A DNA stretch of 64,000 nt from Anaerolineales bacterium. GTDB lineage: Bacteria > Chloroflexota > Anaerolineae > 4572-78 > J111. Position numbers and translations under genes: made by a program. The stretch is taken from contig JABTUW010000004.1 in assembly GCA_015075185.1 (NCBI GenBank), forward strand, positions 992,001 to 1,056,000, read 5' to 3'. The notes beneath the pieces are model-generated. The model was not told the DNA's origin. It searched no databases and saw only the letters and a list, made by a program, of their open reading frames with translations. Below are positions 14,394 to 20,036 of this stretch, in pieces. The number at the start of each line of letters is the position of its first letter. Position 1 is the stretch's first letter.

Positions 14394-14448
14394 GGTTAAG
14401 AACGGCCCACAGACGCGAAGCGCACAGATTACATAGATTTTTGGTTTT

Positions 14449-14487
14449 CAAAAGAGGCACAGAAAAAATCTCTGTGTCTCTTTTGTT
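14449..14487 (+). terminator. Hairpin terminator ending the hydroxylase operon
   Basis: AAAAGAGGCACAGA and TCTGTGTCTCTTTT form a long A/T-flanked hairpin about 55 nt after the EthD stop codon. It ends the GC-rich region and precedes the AT-rich island. Confidence 0.75.
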
Positions 14488-14621
14488 AATTGGAGTGTTG
14501 CCAGAACGCTGGAATTTAGCCAGGAAGTGTGGTAATATGAGGATGCCTGCTAATCCAATAGTCGGGATGCCCGCTAAGGCAAATTAGGTGTCTCAGTGAT
14601 GCATTTTAGAATATTTGCTGA

Positions 14622-14650
14622 TTGATATTTATCTTAAATTTCCCGATAAT
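14622..14650 (+). promoter_or_regulatory. Candidate promoter of the SMEK-Argonaute operon
   Basis: TTGATA (14622-14627) and GATAAT (14645-14650) are 17 nt apart, about 60 nt upstream of the first gene. The flanking 14488-14716 sequence is AT-rich and shows no gene. Confidence 0.5.
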
Positions 14651-14716
14651 ACTTTATGTGCTCTAAATTGAAACTTTGGATAATGGTTAGATAAAAAGGA
14701 TTTGGTAATTACAATA

Positions 14717-16192
14717 ATGCACCTTCAGAACTCCTTAAAACGCATCAGCGAATTATTCTCAATCTTCATAACCCAAGTTAAGTCACAAAAAGCATTAGGC
14801 TTAACAGATTTAAATAAACTAAGTGAAAATGTTTTAGTGCCCCTATTTAGGGAAATATATAATTTTATCCACATCGAAAAACTAGAAGCCTACCACGAAA
14901 ACTTTCCTGCAATTGATTTGGGCGACGACTTCGCACGGGTTGCCAGTCAAATTACCGCTACACCCTCTAGTGAAAAAGTAAAAAAGACCTTGAAGGGGTT
15001 TATTGAACATCGTTTATTTGAACGTTATGACCGATTAATAATCTACATCATTTCGGAGAAACAAACCCTATATTCTGGAAAAGGATTCGACGAAATAATT
15101 GAGGACCGTTTTTCCTTTAATACGGAAAGCGACATTCAAGACTGGACAGATTTGTTGGGGGAAATTAAGAATTTTCAACTTGCAAAGACAAGGAAAGTTG
15201 AATCTATTCTGGAACAAAACTTCGGCGAATCGGATATTGGTATATTTGGAAGTGTTGAGTTAGAGCCAAAAGAGAATGTCTCTCTGAATTTCATTGATGT
15301 GACTTTCCCATCAATACTTTATATCGCCGATATTTCTATTGAGCGACAAGAAGTAATCGCCAACTCGAAACATTATAAAATCCAGCTCAACAGTAACAGT
15401 GATACCAGAAAAATCGTGAGAGCTGCGTTGGAGCAATTGGGGTTTGGTACCGACGTTGACTTCGATTGGGTTTGCCATGAGAATAAGATAATAACATTCC
15501 ATGATTTAGACGATAAATCCCAACCACTAAACCACGTTATTGACATTGGCACCTTGACCCCAATGAATTCCCAAGAATTCTTTGAAATCGATGAAGATTA
15601 TGAAAGACTATTTATTCAGCTACTCCGTTGCTGTTTGCAACAAATGCTTATGTTGAAGTCCGTTATATGGCACAAGAAAGAAAAGCTATTCATTTTTGTT
15701 CCTACAGGTGATGAAGATATACGAAAAGAAAAATGGGTAGGGGAAAGATCTAGTGAAAGGGATGTTTTTGTAAAAAAATGGCGAAAGGATGAACCGGATA
15801 AAGTCGATTTTTGTAAACATTTGGCTTTTTCAGCCCAATTCCGAAGAGTTTCAGATAATTGGTATTTAATAGTTAAACCAGACTGGCATTTTAGCTTTGA
15901 TGGCTATAAAAGGCATTTTAAAAGTGATGATAAAGTTGCATGGTTAAAGCGTCAGGAAAGAAACCCCCATATCCTTAACCACCTCCGTTTCATTACTCAT
16001 TTCTTATCTTATAAAGAACCGCCTGGTTTATTTGATGAAACATACAATTATCCATTTTTGACATTTGGGGAATTACAGACATTTTCAAATTCTCCACCTC
16101 TGGACGATAAATTGTGGCTAGGACATGAAGAAAAAGAAGTAAGGGAGAAGTTGGACCCAAATCAGATGCCACTTTTTACTGAGGACATATGA
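14717..16192 (+). CDS. SMEK-domain/APAZ-like effector partner of short Argonaute
   Basis: 491 residues from the ATG at 14717. An upstream TTG at 14702 is possible but sits too close to the AAGGA. Residues 1-165 resemble the SMEK domain: LGLTDLNKLSENVLVPLFRE, FPAIDLGDDFARVASQIT with Asp67 and Gln78-Ile-Thr80, and a helix/strand pair ending YDRLIIYIISEK. The spacing of Asp and Gln-x-Thr recalls degenerate PD-(D/E)xK nucleases (inference). The C-terminal part has FCKHLAFSAQFRRVSDNWYL, FSFDGYKR, QERNPHILNHLRF and FLTFGELQTF, which I read as the APAZ-type domain that pairs with short Argonautes. Codon use is AT-rich, unlike the neighbours. Its stop overlaps the Argonaute start by 4 nt. Confidence 0.8.
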   Translation: MHLQNSLKRISELFSIFITQVKSQKALGLTDLNKLSENVLVPLFREIYNFIHIEKLEAYHENFPAIDLGDDFARVASQITATPSSEKVKKTLKGFIEHRLFERYDRLIIYIISEKQTLYSGKGFDEIIEDRFSFNTESDIQDWTDLLGEIKNFQLAKTRKVESILEQNFGESDIGIFGSVELEPKENVSLNFIDVTFPSILYIADISIERQEVIANSKHYKIQLNSNSDTRKIVRAALEQLGFGTDVDFDWVCHENKIITFHDLDDKSQPLNHVIDIGTLTPMNSQEFFEIDEDYERLFIQLLRCCLQQMLMLKSVIWHKKEKLFIFVPTGDEDIRKEKWVGERSSERDVFVKKWRKDEPDKVDFCKHLAFSAQFRRVSDNWYLIVKPDWHFSFDGYKRHFKSDDKVAWLKRQERNPHILNHLRFITHFLSYKEPPGLFDETYNYPFLTFGELQTFSNSPPLDDKLWLGHEEKEVREKLDPNQMPLFTEDI

Positions 16193-17610
16193 AACTGCAT
16201 TTTATTGAAGAACCAGAACTTGAATTTGGAAATGGCACACACGTTTGTCCAAGAGGTGGGATAAGTAAACATCAGGTTTATGATGTTAAAATGCCTGTAA
16301 GGAGAGAAAGGCTACTTGTTGGTGGGGTTGGCACTAATGAAAACCTATCGAAACTTGCGACATGGATAACAAGATGTACAAAGTTCATGCCTGCTCGCCT
16401 GGATGTAGCACAGCCCAATTTATATCCAAGTTTCTGCGGATTTAACAAAGACATTGGGTATAAAGCTGAATTAGTTCATGAAGATAGTATAACTCGTTAC
16501 CTAATGAATAGGGATGTTAGTAAAGTGCTTAGTGAAGACAATTGGAATCAAAGGGTAGAAATAGCAGTTGATTTGTACTACCGTCAAATTAAATTCTTAG
16601 CACAAAACAGACCTGTTGATGTCATTGTTTGTGTTATTCCCAACAAACTCTATGATGCAATTGCATCTAAACAGCCGAAATCTCTAGAAGAAAATATTGA
16701 AGATCAACCAGACGACGAACTGGAAATGAACTTTCGGCGCGCGTTAAAAGCGAAGACTATGCATCTTGGTAAGCCAATTCAATTAGTTCAGGAATTATCA
16801 CTGGAACCAGGTCCAAGGGGAAAATCCGATGATGCTGTACGTGCCTGGGATTTTTGCACTGCTCTATACTACAAGGCTAACCAAACAGTTCCTTGGCGGT
16901 TAGTCACAAATATTAATCGTCCTCAGGTATGCTTTGTTGGAATTGGTTTTTATAGAAGCCGCGATAAGAAAGTTTTACATACGAGTTTAGCTCAAATATT
17001 CGACGAATTGGGAAACAATGTCATTCTTAGAGGAACTCCTGTTGAAACAGATAAAGATAATCGTCGCCCTCATTTATCTGAAGAACAATCATATCAATTA
17101 CTATCACACGCCTTAAATGAATATGAAATAGCAATGGGAAGCCTTCCAGGTAGGTTAGTTATCCATAAATCATCAAATTTTAATCAAGCTGAATTATATG
17201 GTTTTCAGTCAGCAGCGAGTGATGTCAGGGTAGGAGTTACTGACTTTGTGACAATTCTTGATACCAATATACGGCTTTTACGACGCGGAAGCTATCCCCC
17301 TTATCGAGGAATGCACATTGAGCTTGATAGAGTGAATCACATACTTTATACGCGCGGTTCTGTCGATTATTATATGACCTATCCTGGCAAATACATTCCT
17401 CATCCTCTTGAGGTGCGAATCGTTGAATCTGAGGAATCTCCTCAAACAATTTGTCAAGAAATACTTGCCCTCACTAAAATGAACTGGAATAGTACGCAAT
17501 TTGATGGAAGATTGCCAATAACTATTGTCTGTGCCAGAAAAGTCGGAGAGATACTTAAATATTTGCCCTTGGATGAAAATCCCCAAATCAGCTACAGTTT
17601 TTATATGTAA
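16189..17610 (+). CDS. Short prokaryotic Argonaute (MID-PIWI), catalytically inactive
   Basis: 473 residues with only MID and PIWI regions. The MID part includes RPVDVIVCVIPNKLYDAI, LVQELSLEPGP, and AWDFCTALYYKANQTVPWRL. The PIWI part includes CFVGIGFYRSRDKKVLHTS, RLVIHKSSNFNQAELYGF, LLRRGSYPPYRG and the C-terminal NWNSTQFDGRLPITI preceding ARKVGEIL. The first catalytic Asp of the DEDX tetrad is replaced (GIG instead of GID) and no complete tetrad is visible. It should therefore bind guide and target rather than cut. Known short pAgos use the guide to trigger a partner effector, here the coupled SMEK/APAZ protein (ATGA overlap). The gene is AT-rich, which suggests horizontal acquisition. Confidence 0.9.
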   Translation: MKLHFIEEPELEFGNGTHVCPRGGISKHQVYDVKMPVRRERLLVGGVGTNENLSKLATWITRCTKFMPARLDVAQPNLYPSFCGFNKDIGYKAELVHEDSITRYLMNRDVSKVLSEDNWNQRVEIAVDLYYRQIKFLAQNRPVDVIVCVIPNKLYDAIASKQPKSLEENIEDQPDDELEMNFRRALKAKTMHLGKPIQLVQELSLEPGPRGKSDDAVRAWDFCTALYYKANQTVPWRLVTNINRPQVCFVGIGFYRSRDKKVLHTSLAQIFDELGNNVILRGTPVETDKDNRRPHLSEEQSYQLLSHALNEYEIAMGSLPGRLVIHKSSNFNQAELYGFQSAASDVRVGVTDFVTILDTNIRLLRRGSYPPYRGMHIELDRVNHILYTRGSVDYYMTYPGKYIPHPLEVRIVESEESPQTICQEILALTKMNWNSTQFDGRLPITIVCARKVGEILKYLPLDENPQISYSFYM

Positions 17611-17665
17611 TTTGAACTAAACGATTTTAAGAGCATAAAATTTGTCCCTTTTTAGTCAGCACAAC

Positions 17666-17794
17666 ACCTAACAAAGCCCATGCACACGAATTGCTGCTCT
17701 GCGTTTTTTAGGAATTGGTTCTGTCTGCGGTGTCACTTGGCATTGAATGTGACCTTGCTGGCCCGCAATCGTGTGATGGTCGGGCGTTAGCTGG
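17666..17794 (+). other. Integron attC-like recombination site
   Basis: The element starts with ACCTAAC (RYYYAAC type) at 17666-17672 and ends with GTTAGCT (close to GTTRRRY) at 17786-17792. Its ends are imperfectly complementary: TAACAAAGCCC with GGGCGTTA, and CACACGAATTG with CAATCGTGTG. Total length is about 129 bp, similar to the long attC sites of the Vibrio type. It lies 56 nt after the Argonaute stop in the orientation expected for the 3' end of a gene cassette. No integrase gene is in the window. Confidence 0.6.
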
Positions 17795-17847
17795 AAATAA
17801 AAATTATGGTGTATCACAAGGTAGTGGAGTATCCTGAATGAGGCGTT

Positions 17848-18267
17848 ATGAGTCAGACAAGCATCAACCAGACTTTGGTTACTGAAATCGAACAACTTTT
17901 GCCCCCTGAAATTACCACCGCGCTGACCGATTTCCAGCGCCAACTCCTCGACCTGTTCCCCGGCGAAATCGAGCAAATCATCCTCTACGGTTCTTATGCC
18001 ACCGGCCAGGCCACATCCGACTCTGATGTGGATGTGCTGGTGGTCGTTCCCTGGCGCGACCCGACTCATTCACAAGATTACTACCTCGGTGGCCCTGGTG
18101 ACCCTCGCTGGCAGCAAATTGTTGATTTGGCAATGGACGTGCTGATTGCGCACGGCCCTTACATTTCCGCTTTGGTTGTAGGTGAAACCTTGTTTAATAG
18201 CAACTGGTCCGTGGCCGAGGCAGCCAAACGAGAAGGCAAAATTCTATGGCAGAAGCCGCTAACCTGA
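17848..18267 (+). CDS. Minimal nucleotidyltransferase (MNT) of a HEPN/MNT pair
   Basis: 139 residues with the nucleotidyltransferase signature YGSYATGQATSDSDVDVLVV: Gly48-Ser49, then Asp60 and Asp62 as metal ligands. Proteins of this kind (COG1708 type) form toxin-antitoxin pairs with HEPN proteins and can adenylylate them. GAGG lies just upstream of the ATG. It overlaps the HEPN gene by 22 nt. GC content is intermediate, unlike the AT-rich Argonaute operon, so the two units may have separate origins. Confidence 0.88.
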   Translation: MSQTSINQTLVTEIEQLLPPEITTALTDFQRQLLDLFPGEIEQIILYGSYATGQATSDSDVDVLVVVPWRDPTHSQDYYLGGPGDPRWQQIVDLAMDVLIAHGPYISALVVGETLFNSNWSVAEAAKREGKILWQKPLT

Positions 18268-18653
18268 AAGACCCGCAAACGTGGCTCGAAGTAGCTGAAA
18301 TCAAGTTAGAAAATGCACGTCAAATCTTCAATCTTGGTTTATATGACGATGCTATTTCGCGGCTCTATTATGCTATGTTTTATGCAGCCAAAGCAGCCTT
18401 ACTAATCGAAGGTTTGGATTTGCGCAAACACTCATCGGCGGTGACAAAGTTTCGGGAGCTTTTTGTGCTCACCGGTCGCGTCGAGGCTGAATATCTGCGC
18501 TACCTGGAACGCAGCGACTACGCTCCCTTCATACCCACCAGTCACGCCGATGCCAAAGAAATGCTCGCTACAGCAGAAACCTTTATTGCTAAAATGAAAG
18601 AAGTCGTTAAGAATTATCCGCGCTCGGCTTCTTTGGAAAATGAATCTCCTTAA
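18246..18653 (+). CDS. HEPN domain protein (COG1895/UPF0332 type)
   Basis: 135 residues, all-helical. LYDDAISRLYYAMFYAAKAAL, KHSSAVTKFRELFV and a C-terminal SDYAPF segment match the COG1895 branch of HEPN proteins. I do not see an unambiguous RX4-6H ribonuclease motif, so whether it is an active toxin is open. In paired systems the MNT protein neutralises the HEPN protein. The final codons (from about 18636) run into a fragment derived from another gene, so its native C-terminus may have been altered. Confidence 0.85.
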   Translation: MAEAANLKDPQTWLEVAEIKLENARQIFNLGLYDDAISRLYYAMFYAAKAALLIEGLDLRKHSSAVTKFRELFVLTGRVEAEYLRYLERSDYAPFIPTSHADAKEMLATAETFIAKMKEVVKNYPRSASLENESP

Positions 18654-18709
18654 ACGCCACTGCCTGCTCTTGCAGCGGCGCCTCAATCGCCATACGCTCG
18701 ATGCTATAG
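18636..18709 (-). pseudogene. Duplicated 3' fragment of the TIM-barrel (Tm-1-like) gene
   Basis: This stretch is about 85% identical by eye to 19201-19273, the 3' end of the TIM-barrel gene at 19179-20036, in the same orientation. On the minus strand it still reads SIERMAIEAPLQEQAVAFK. No start or remaining barrel is present. It overlaps the end of the HEPN gene. It is best seen as a relic left by insertion or recombination at this locus. Confidence 0.75.
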
Positions 18710-18752
18710 GAACTAGCGGTCATAGGCTTTGCGGCTGAAAGCGAGAGATGTT

Positions 18753-18991
18753 ATGGAGTATGATAAAGACAGAGTGGATGAAATGGTCCGGCCCTGCTCT
18801 ATCTCACCAGCTCTCACGATAAATATGGTACCAGGGCATGGAAGGGTCTGGATTGGGGAGTGCTGGACAGGTTATACCAAAAAGGATACATTGGCGATCC
18901 AAAGGGAAAATCCGCGTCAATGGTTGTGACTGAAGCAGGGGCAAAACTTTCAAAAGAGTTATTTTTCAAGCATTTTGGCGCAAAAGAATAA
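18753..18991 (+). pseudogene. DUF6429-like gene with a frameshift
   Basis: The frame opens as MEYDKDRVDEMV and then breaks near 18788. One nucleotide appears to be missing, because the next frame continues as LLYLTSSHDKYGTRAWKGLD, then GVLDRLYQKGYIGDPKGKS and VVTEAGAKLSKELFFKHFG, ending at a TAA at 18989-18991. The reconstructed protein is about 79 residues and matches what I know of DUF6429, whose function is unknown. A sequencing error could also explain the shift. Confidence 0.65.
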
Positions 18992-19030
18992 AGCACTATG
19001 TTTGCACTTTTCACAACCGGCCAAAATTTG

Positions 19031-19121
19031 CACGCAGATGACGCGGATTCCACCGATTTGCGCTGATTCTTTCTAAATTTCTCTGCGCAAATCTGCGTTT
19101 CTCTGCGTTTATCAGCGTTCT
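19031..19121. repeat. Intergenic inverted repeat rich in CGCAGAT/TCTGCG words
   Basis: A perfect 9-bp inner stem, GATTTGCGC (19055-19063) with GCGCAAATC (19085-19093), is flanked by further complementary ACGCAGA/TCTGCGT words. It lies in the gap between the DUF6429 relic and the 3' end of the TIM-barrel gene. Confidence 0.65.
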
Positions 19122-19178
19122 ATTTAAAAAATTACAAAGATAGTGATAAAGCAGCGCACCTATCTGCATAAGTTTTAT

Positions 19179-20036
19179 CTACCCACGTTGGACTCCCTGA
19201 GAAAAATAAATCCCCTTAAACGCCGCCGCCCGCTCTTGCAGCGGGACCTCAATGGCCATGCGCTCGATGCTGGAGCCGAGCTGCACCCCGTGGCAGCCGG
19301 TATGGTCGAGCATGTACTGGGCATCCTCCGGGTTGACCAAGGCCGCCCCATGAGCCAATAAAATGACGTCCGGCTTGATTTTCTGGGCCAGGTCATAATG
19401 GGCCTGGCTGCGGGCGGCCATTTCTTCCATGGAACTGCCGGCGGCATAGCCGGTCGAGCCGCCGCGGGTAATCCCGGCGTGAAAGATAAAGATGTCCGGG
19501 GCCGCTTCGGCCATCAGCTTTTCGGCGTCAACCTCGTTGAAGGCGTAGCCAATGGTCAGCATGTCCAGCTCGCGGGCCAGGTTGAGCATGTCAATTTCCA
19601 GTTGGTAGCCCAGGCCGGTCGCTTCCAGGGTGCGCCGAAATTCGCCGTCGAACCAGGCCACAGTGGGGAAGTTATGCACCCCGGAAAAGCCAATCCGGCG
19701 GCAGTCTTCCAGGAACAGGCGCATGTCGCGCAGCACATCCACCCCGTTCAGCCCGGCGATGACCGGGACTTCTTTGACCTGCGGCAGCACCTCGCGCCGG
19801 CCCATCTGAAAGACCATCTCGTTGGCGTCGGCCATGGGCAGCATCCCGGCCAGCGAGCCGTACCCCTGCATGCGAAAATAGCCGGTGTTGTAAACACCCA
19901 GGATATCCACCCCGCCGCGCTCGATGAACTTGGCGGCAATCCCGTTGCCCGCCCCGGTCATGACCAGGGGCTTGCCCCGCTTGATCTCAGCCCACAAGCG
20001 GTCTAGAAACTCTTGACGTGTGTAACGTTTTGCCAT
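19179..20036 (-). CDS. TIM-barrel protein, phosphoenolpyruvate hydrolase-like (Tm-1 C-terminal half)
   Basis: 285 residues. The N-terminal MAKRYTRQEFLDRLWAEIKR is followed by PLVMTGAGNGIAAKFIERGG, VPVIAGLNGVD, SGVHNFPTVAWFDG, FIFHAGITRGGSTGY and GVQLGSSIERMA. This is the pattern of the PEP-hydrolase-like barrel that forms the second half of plant Tm-1. Its enzymatic role is not established. The frame extends to 20072, but the ATG at 20036 follows GAGG. It is read after the UPF0261 gene at 20279-21505; in plants the two are one protein. Confidence 0.87.
   Translation of the reverse strand: MAKRYTRQEFLDRLWAEIKRGKPLVMTGAGNGIAAKFIERGGVDILGVYNTGYFRMQGYGSLAGMLPMADANEMVFQMGRREVLPQVKEVPVIAGLNGVDVLRDMRLFLEDCRRIGFSGVHNFPTVAWFDGEFRRTLEATGLGYQLEIDMLNLARELDMLTIGYAFNEVDAEKLMAEAAPDIFIFHAGITRGGSTGYAAGSSMEEMAARSQAHYDLAQKIKPDVILLAHGAALVNPEDAQYMLDHTGCHGVQLGSSIERMAIEVPLQERAAAFKGIYFSQGVQRG

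Follow-up and report, generated by a model that had tools for sequence, protein, structure and literature searches.

The window analysed is a 64-kb stretch of DNA (G000:C5:992001-1056000) from an Anaerolineales bacterium, whose assembly (G000) comprises 9.4 Mb in 10 contigs. Contamination of the assembly is estimated at 7.35%, yet contigs C1, C5 and C7 all hold members of both the attC family and the element family described below. The locus contains a two-gene operon of a short prokaryotic Argonaute (pAgo), an integron-type attC site behind it, an attI-like element in front of it and a second gene pair further downstream:

14505-14583, + strand: orphan attI-like element (core model match 14529-14581); ends ...CCCGCTAAGGCAAA at the crossover, with the G of G/TT missing
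14584-17786, + strand: proposed pAgo gene cassette, 3203 bp; 5' end TTAGGT, 3' end the G of the attC R' box
14702-16192, + strand: SMEK/Mrr-like nuclease and APAZ protein, 496 aa; start TTG at 14702 or in-frame ATG at 14717
16189-17610, + strand: short prokaryotic Argonaute, 473 aa; 4-bp overlap with the upstream gene
17666-17792, + strand: attC site, 127 bp; R'' ACCTAAC 17666-17672, stem 17679-17694 with 17765-17778, R' GTTAGCT 17786-17792, crossover 17786/17787
17787-17847, + strand: sequence past the crossover, starting TTAGCTGG...; R' half and leader of whatever came after the insertion site
17848-18653, + strand: MNT nucleotidyltransferase (17848-18267) and HEPN protein (18246-18653); Pfam NTP_transf_2 and HEPN
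18637-18705, + strand: 69-bp partial copy, 87% identical to 19203-19271; marks the right border of the variable region

The Argonaute operon and its attC site

The 496-aa protein was identified by PADLOC as Aga_REase-PNTD1-PNTD2 (E=2.6e-144) and by Pfam as SMEK_N (E=2e-38). The 473-aa protein was identified by PADLOC as pAgo_I (E=1e-174) and matches the pAgo chain of SPARDA in the PDB (9jsb, E=5e-72). SPARDA-type systems consist of a short pAgo homologous to that of SPARDA and an APAZ-nuclease partner, and both are present here, encoded by overlapping genes and strongly similar to solved SPARDA chains. The difference lies in the partner. Its APAZ half matches the DREN-APAZ chain of 9jsb (E=3e-17), whereas its N-terminus is SMEK/Mrr-like rather than DREN and matches the Mrr domain of the Mrr-APAZ pAgo 26bh (E=2e-21). 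In SPARDA, a guide RNA directed at invading DNA sets off collateral nuclease activity (PMC12205087). By analogy, the operon of the window may act like SPARDA, as a predicted defence system. Near relatives of the pAgo are found in Anaerolineae MAGs, and only this genome among 12 of the family contains a full-length close homologue. The same genome also encodes a second, more distant pAgo (G000:C1:1730041-1731219; 36% identity over residues 81-473).

The original prediction placed an attC-like palindrome of 129 bp behind the Argonaute gene, with one odd base in its 3' core. The structure is present, trimmed to 127 bp. Its letters, in order, are ACCTAAC-AAAGCC-CAT[G]CACACG[A]ATTGC...GCAATCGTGTGATG-GTCGGGC-GTTAGCT, with the R boxes outside, then unpaired spacers and then the stem, in which the L'' arm (17679-17694) pairs with GCAATCGTGTGATG (L', 17765-17778). 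As read from the sequence, two bases on the left arm (in brackets) are partnerless and lie 6 nt apart. Classical attC sites have their extrahelical bases in the same arrangement, with two unpaired left-arm bases at a spacing of 6 nt.

Five attC sites from the C1 and C7 arrays of this genome served to build a covariance model (R1), with the window left out and the structure drawn by hand. R1 matched the window site with 61.3 bits (E=3.6e-14), far beyond chance, and the second-best match in the window reached 13.5 bits. Double changes occur at 13 of the 22 pairs of the training alignment, and none of 500 shuffles reached the observed values. Among 35 attC sites of the genome, 92.4% of the cells of the 22-pair stem are paired and 171 cells are double-changed, compared with 60 in shuffles, in an alignment that was fitted to the structure and is therefore biased towards it. 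A structure-based palindrome scan that permits an unpaired R-L spacer also picks out the site (shuffled control at equal threshold, 2 matches per 786 kb), and a second copy, 78% identical, is found in the genome. No family was matched in an Rfam scan of the window. The stability of the single-stranded fold is not unusual (z +0.43 and -0.93), as expected with a loop of about 70 nt; the structure was therefore assessed by covariation instead. Thus, positions 17666-17792 are confirmed as a genuine attC site, the bottom strand of which would be recombined by IntI.

The odd base of the 3' core is also seen and can be accounted for. The R'' box ACCTAAC fits RYYYAAC. The R' box as present, GTTAGCT, deviates from GTTRRRY at one base, and the same base is carried by the native attI and attC sites of the C7 array and by the C1 attI, so that GTTAGCT is a native form in this genome. 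The R' half from 17787 onward belongs to whatever comes after the cassette, which explains the deviation. The TTAGCTGG start recurs in the C1 and C7 integrons, where attI meets the first cassette. The cassette's own R', once joined, is GTTAGGT, which fits GTTRRRY fully.

As originally noted, there is no integrase gene in the window. A curated integron-integrase model detected two intact intI genes above its cut-off on other contigs, C1:1268695-1269636 (484.8 bits) and C7:157684-158625 (483.3 bits), and a third, broken intI on C9; in 14 control genomes, all scores were below the cut-off. The C1 and C7 genes are adjoined by attC arrays, with attI cores GTTAGCTGG. Across the whole genome, R1 gave 45 matches at E<=1, many of them solitary and distant from any integron, and R1 matches are also present in 15 of 41 relatives.

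Other traces of integron activity were observed in these genomes. The decayed intI (G000:C9:215680-216045; L024 18680-19045) has an attI-like GTTGGGCC core, with attC sites at C9:219-224 kb. The sister genome G001 contains a superintegron with an intact intI and more than 20 attC sites (L077-L080; G001:C1:264476-315771). Two related transposase-like insertions, one in the C7 array (L020 7333-8975) and one on C8 (L179 7508-7632), each interrupt an attC site within the right stem arm and have the identical junction GCTAATTACTATGGTAGAGTCAAATTTAG; the C7 insertion resembles the IS110 type. These junction sequences suggest that attC sites of this genome are the target of an IS.

The left boundary and its conserved element

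The left boundary had been predicted at approximately 14.5 kb. This was roughly right; the exact position is 14583/14584, at a conserved attI-like element that had been overlooked. This element (14505-14583), outside the palindrome first described, is the more interesting part of the locus. The sequence 14505-14593 has two counterparts elsewhere in the genome, on C4 and C7, with 72-74% similarity; each lies upstream of an attC site, and the similarity stops at ...TTCAAA|GTTAGC and ...TTCAAA|GTTGGG. A search with the element revealed more copies, which likewise precede lone attC sites, and the aligned copies have in common TGTGRTATTATCGGGATGCCTGATAAAAAATAGGCGGGTTTCCCGCTACTTCAAA|GTTAGS and variants thereof. 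A sequence model (R2) derived from 11 copies, with the window excluded, gave a single match in the window (14529-14581, 37.2 bits, E=1.1e-10). With R2, 17 copies of the element (about 60-85 bp) were found in 6 of 150 relatives, 7 of these 17 in this genome. Over 67 bp, the window copy shares 84% identity with the copy at C1:584.8 kb, and the alignment has a single-base gap at the position of the crossover G, reading CAAA-TTAGG versus CAAAGTTAGG; the window copy thus lacks the intact G of an attI.

Directly past the 6-nt core behind the crossover, the pairwise identity of the copies drops to random level (0.23-0.30), and different genes lie behind the different copies. Thus, different cassettes follow one conserved sequence at G/TT, as at an attI. 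Of this genome's seven copies, five (C4, C7, C1a, C8a and the window) have an attC site within 3.1 kb on the same strand; simple arithmetic from 45 attC matches in 9.4 Mb gives a chance of about 0.7% for each copy. In genome G009, two arrays without intI start with the element, one on C42 with 11 attC matches and one on C35 with 5. Behind roughly half of all element copies, no attC can be recognised.

The element resembles an integron attI in its G/TT crossover, its GTTRG core and its conserved upstream repeat with a repeated GGTTTCC/CCCGMTA motif. Also, a promoter-like -10 sequence before the crossover (TGNTATTAT/TGGTAATAT) points into the cassettes directly behind. This TG-N-TATTAT/TAATAT motif was not listed by a generic promoter scan of the window, and is a putative promoter. 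Unlike an attI, which is adjacent to intI, the element of the window has its nearest intI on contigs C1 and C7. It also occurs in several copies per genome and differs in sequence from the intI-adjacent attI sites of the same genomes. The element acts like an attI yet fails the usual positional definition.

The 5' end of a gene cassette holds the R' half that pairs with the cassette's own R''. In the window, the element homology ends at 14583/14584, and TTAGGT (14584-14589) together with the G of 17786 forms GTTAGGT, the exact complement of the R'' box ACCTAAC. Among eight cassettes behind elements, the match between 5' end and R'' is perfect in five and 6/7 in two more (51/56 in total), and only 16 of 40320 permutations of the pairing are as good. 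This complementarity and the end of the element homology delimit the pAgo cassette as 14584-17786. As in other gene cassettes, the ends lie exactly at G/TT, one attC is present and both genes have the orientation of the attC. The cassette orientation and the two-gene content proposed at the outset are therefore supported, with the SMEK/Mrr-APAZ and short pAgo genes between 14584 and their own attC. A start at the perfect GTTAGAT at 14689 was ranked lower, having one mismatch with R'' and no homologous element before it.

When R1 was run over 85 neighbourhoods of other pAgo loci (1.28 Mb), a single attC match was obtained, closing a different cassette. The other loci of the pAgo group are thus essentially not cassettes; the pAgo lineage is not cassette-borne in general and was turned into a cassette here. 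The single match is a 59-bp attC in Litchfieldella qijiaojingensis (L121 9874-9932), 3.7 kb downstream of a SMEK-pAgo pair and behind another gene. This SMEK-pAgo pair could sit in a cassette array.

No empty version of the pAgo locus was found, and the presence/absence comparison is uninformative here since synteny with the sister genome G001 ends at 14403. An exchange of contents can be seen at an orthologous pair of loci, G000:C8:267 kb and G001:C2:1410 kb. A 62-bp element (-57 to +4) is 97% identical between the two up to GTTAG, the next 2.8-3.3 kb are unrelated, and the flanks then resume at 83%. The first cassette at the G001 locus (L233 6069-7680) encodes an N6/N4 methyltransferase and an EcoO109I-type endonuclease (E=9e-73), with an attC right behind. 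By sequence similarity it is another two-gene defence cassette, a putative restriction-modification (R-M) system.

On the right side of the pAgo cassette, the MNT-HEPN pair begins 56 bp past the attC site. No attC was detected after this pair with filters off; the pair is possibly a second cassette, its attC perhaps lost. The 69-bp duplication at the right-hand edge derives from the 3' end of a PEP-mutase-like gene on the right flank of the island. The right flank resumes at 19214 in genome G018, and the left flank stops at 14403 relative to G001. Window positions 18991-19147 are a short dispersed repeat, with copies of 81-87% identity elsewhere in the genome and in the sister genome.

Origin of the cassette locus

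The original observation of an attC site is confirmed, and its main interpretation as the end of a cassette is supported. The proposed reading, to which we assign a probability of about 0.8, is that a SPARDA-like two-gene cassette (14584-17786) with its own attC was inserted at an attI-like site without intI, the integrase acting in trans. The folded single-stranded attC of the pAgo cassette would have recombined at G/TT with the attI-like site 14505-14583, which would be one of the dispersed landing sites of this family. The integrase would most likely have been supplied by one of the intact integrons, at C1:1268.7 kb or C7:157.7 kb. As the promoter-like TGNTATTAT/TGGTAATAT stands before the crossover, the element may drive expression of the inserted cassette too. 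The crossover G would have been lost after insertion. With this G absent, the present-day left junction is no longer intact as a recombination site; excision via the left end is probably blocked and the cassette probably locked in place.

A decayed complete integron, in which an attI was left behind when its own intI was deleted and the pAgo cassette had integrated in cis long ago, is an unlikely source of the locus. Intact integrons do occur in the family and the C9 intI is visibly decaying. The MNT-HEPN pair, which might then be a cassette minus its attC, is also placed as a next cassette would be. However, tblastn (E<=1e-3) revealed no intI or intI remnant near the element copies examined in 6 genomes, including 1.6-14.6 kb upstream at 14 copies, and the difference in sequence between the element and the intI-adjacent attI sites likewise argues against such an origin.

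Insertion at an arbitrary GWT site of the attG type is more doubtful still. The upstream similarity between the copies would then be coincidental, or the dispersed repeat would simply be a good target. The attG sites are secondary integration sites into which cassettes are reported to insert commonly (Loot et al., 2024, as cited by PMC12901181 and PMC12444791). As with attG, cassettes are found at chromosomal positions outside the integron platform, and about 14 other dispersed lone attC loci have no element upstream. However, PMC12901181 describes attG sites as divergent, whereas the element is a repeat of which approximately 60 bp are conserved among 17 copies, between genera as well as at an orthologous locus, and the surroundings of its crossover are conserved rather than non-conserved as around the GWT of attG. 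Both the roughly 14 attC loci without the element and the half of the element copies without attC indicate that the orphan attI accounts for only part of the dispersal.

It is highly improbable that the attC came in by another mechanism (an IS, or homologous recombination between dispersed repeats) within a larger island, its pAgo genes never having formed a cassette. In favour of this view, the region 14403-19213 is a mosaic with a partial duplication at its border, three other lone-attC loci (L168, L169 and L178) have inserts exceeding one cassette or rearranged flanks relative to the sister genome, and the nearest pAgo relatives have no attC behind them. Against it, 14584-14589 is exactly complementary to R'' at the very position where the homology of the element stops, which would be unexpected. 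The larger or rearranged inserts at these three loci indicate that further routes operate too.

Among known arrangements, the locus shares with CALINs an attC with extrahelical bases, the cassette orientation and an intI elsewhere in the genome. The G009 arrays on C35 and C42 fit the CALIN definition of at least two attC sites and no intI. The window locus differs in having one attC, below the two-site threshold of IntegronFinder 2 (PMC9024848), and an attI-like element before the cassette. No description of attI repeats without intI or of pAgo cassettes was found in a literature search, which is weak evidence of novelty as few subscription papers were covered.

The insertion in trans proposed for the pAgo cassette could be one case of a distributed integron, a wider model whose chances appear about even. 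In this Chloroflexota-like family, several orphan attI sites with their own promoters would be spread around the chromosome, and one or two trans-acting integrases would load them with single cassettes or small arrays that include two-gene defence operons, such as the SPARDA-like pAgo operon here and the EcoO109I-type R-M system in the sister species.

Implications for integron biology

In the usual picture, an integron is a single platform consisting of intI, one attI and one array. If the proposed reading is true, a conserved attI-like element without intI, present in several copies, would mean that cassettes can be stored and expressed at many chromosomal addresses, with the integrase located elsewhere. 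The attI sites are described as poorly characterized outside class 1 (PMC9024848), so that sites of this kind are not sought by tools based on intI and attC, and IntegronFinder 2 neither detects attI beyond class 1 nor reports a CALIN with fewer than two attC sites (PMC9024848). Loci like that of the window therefore escape it. In addition, an Argonaute system would be added to the defence functions that move as integron cassettes, here in the form of a complete two-gene operon.
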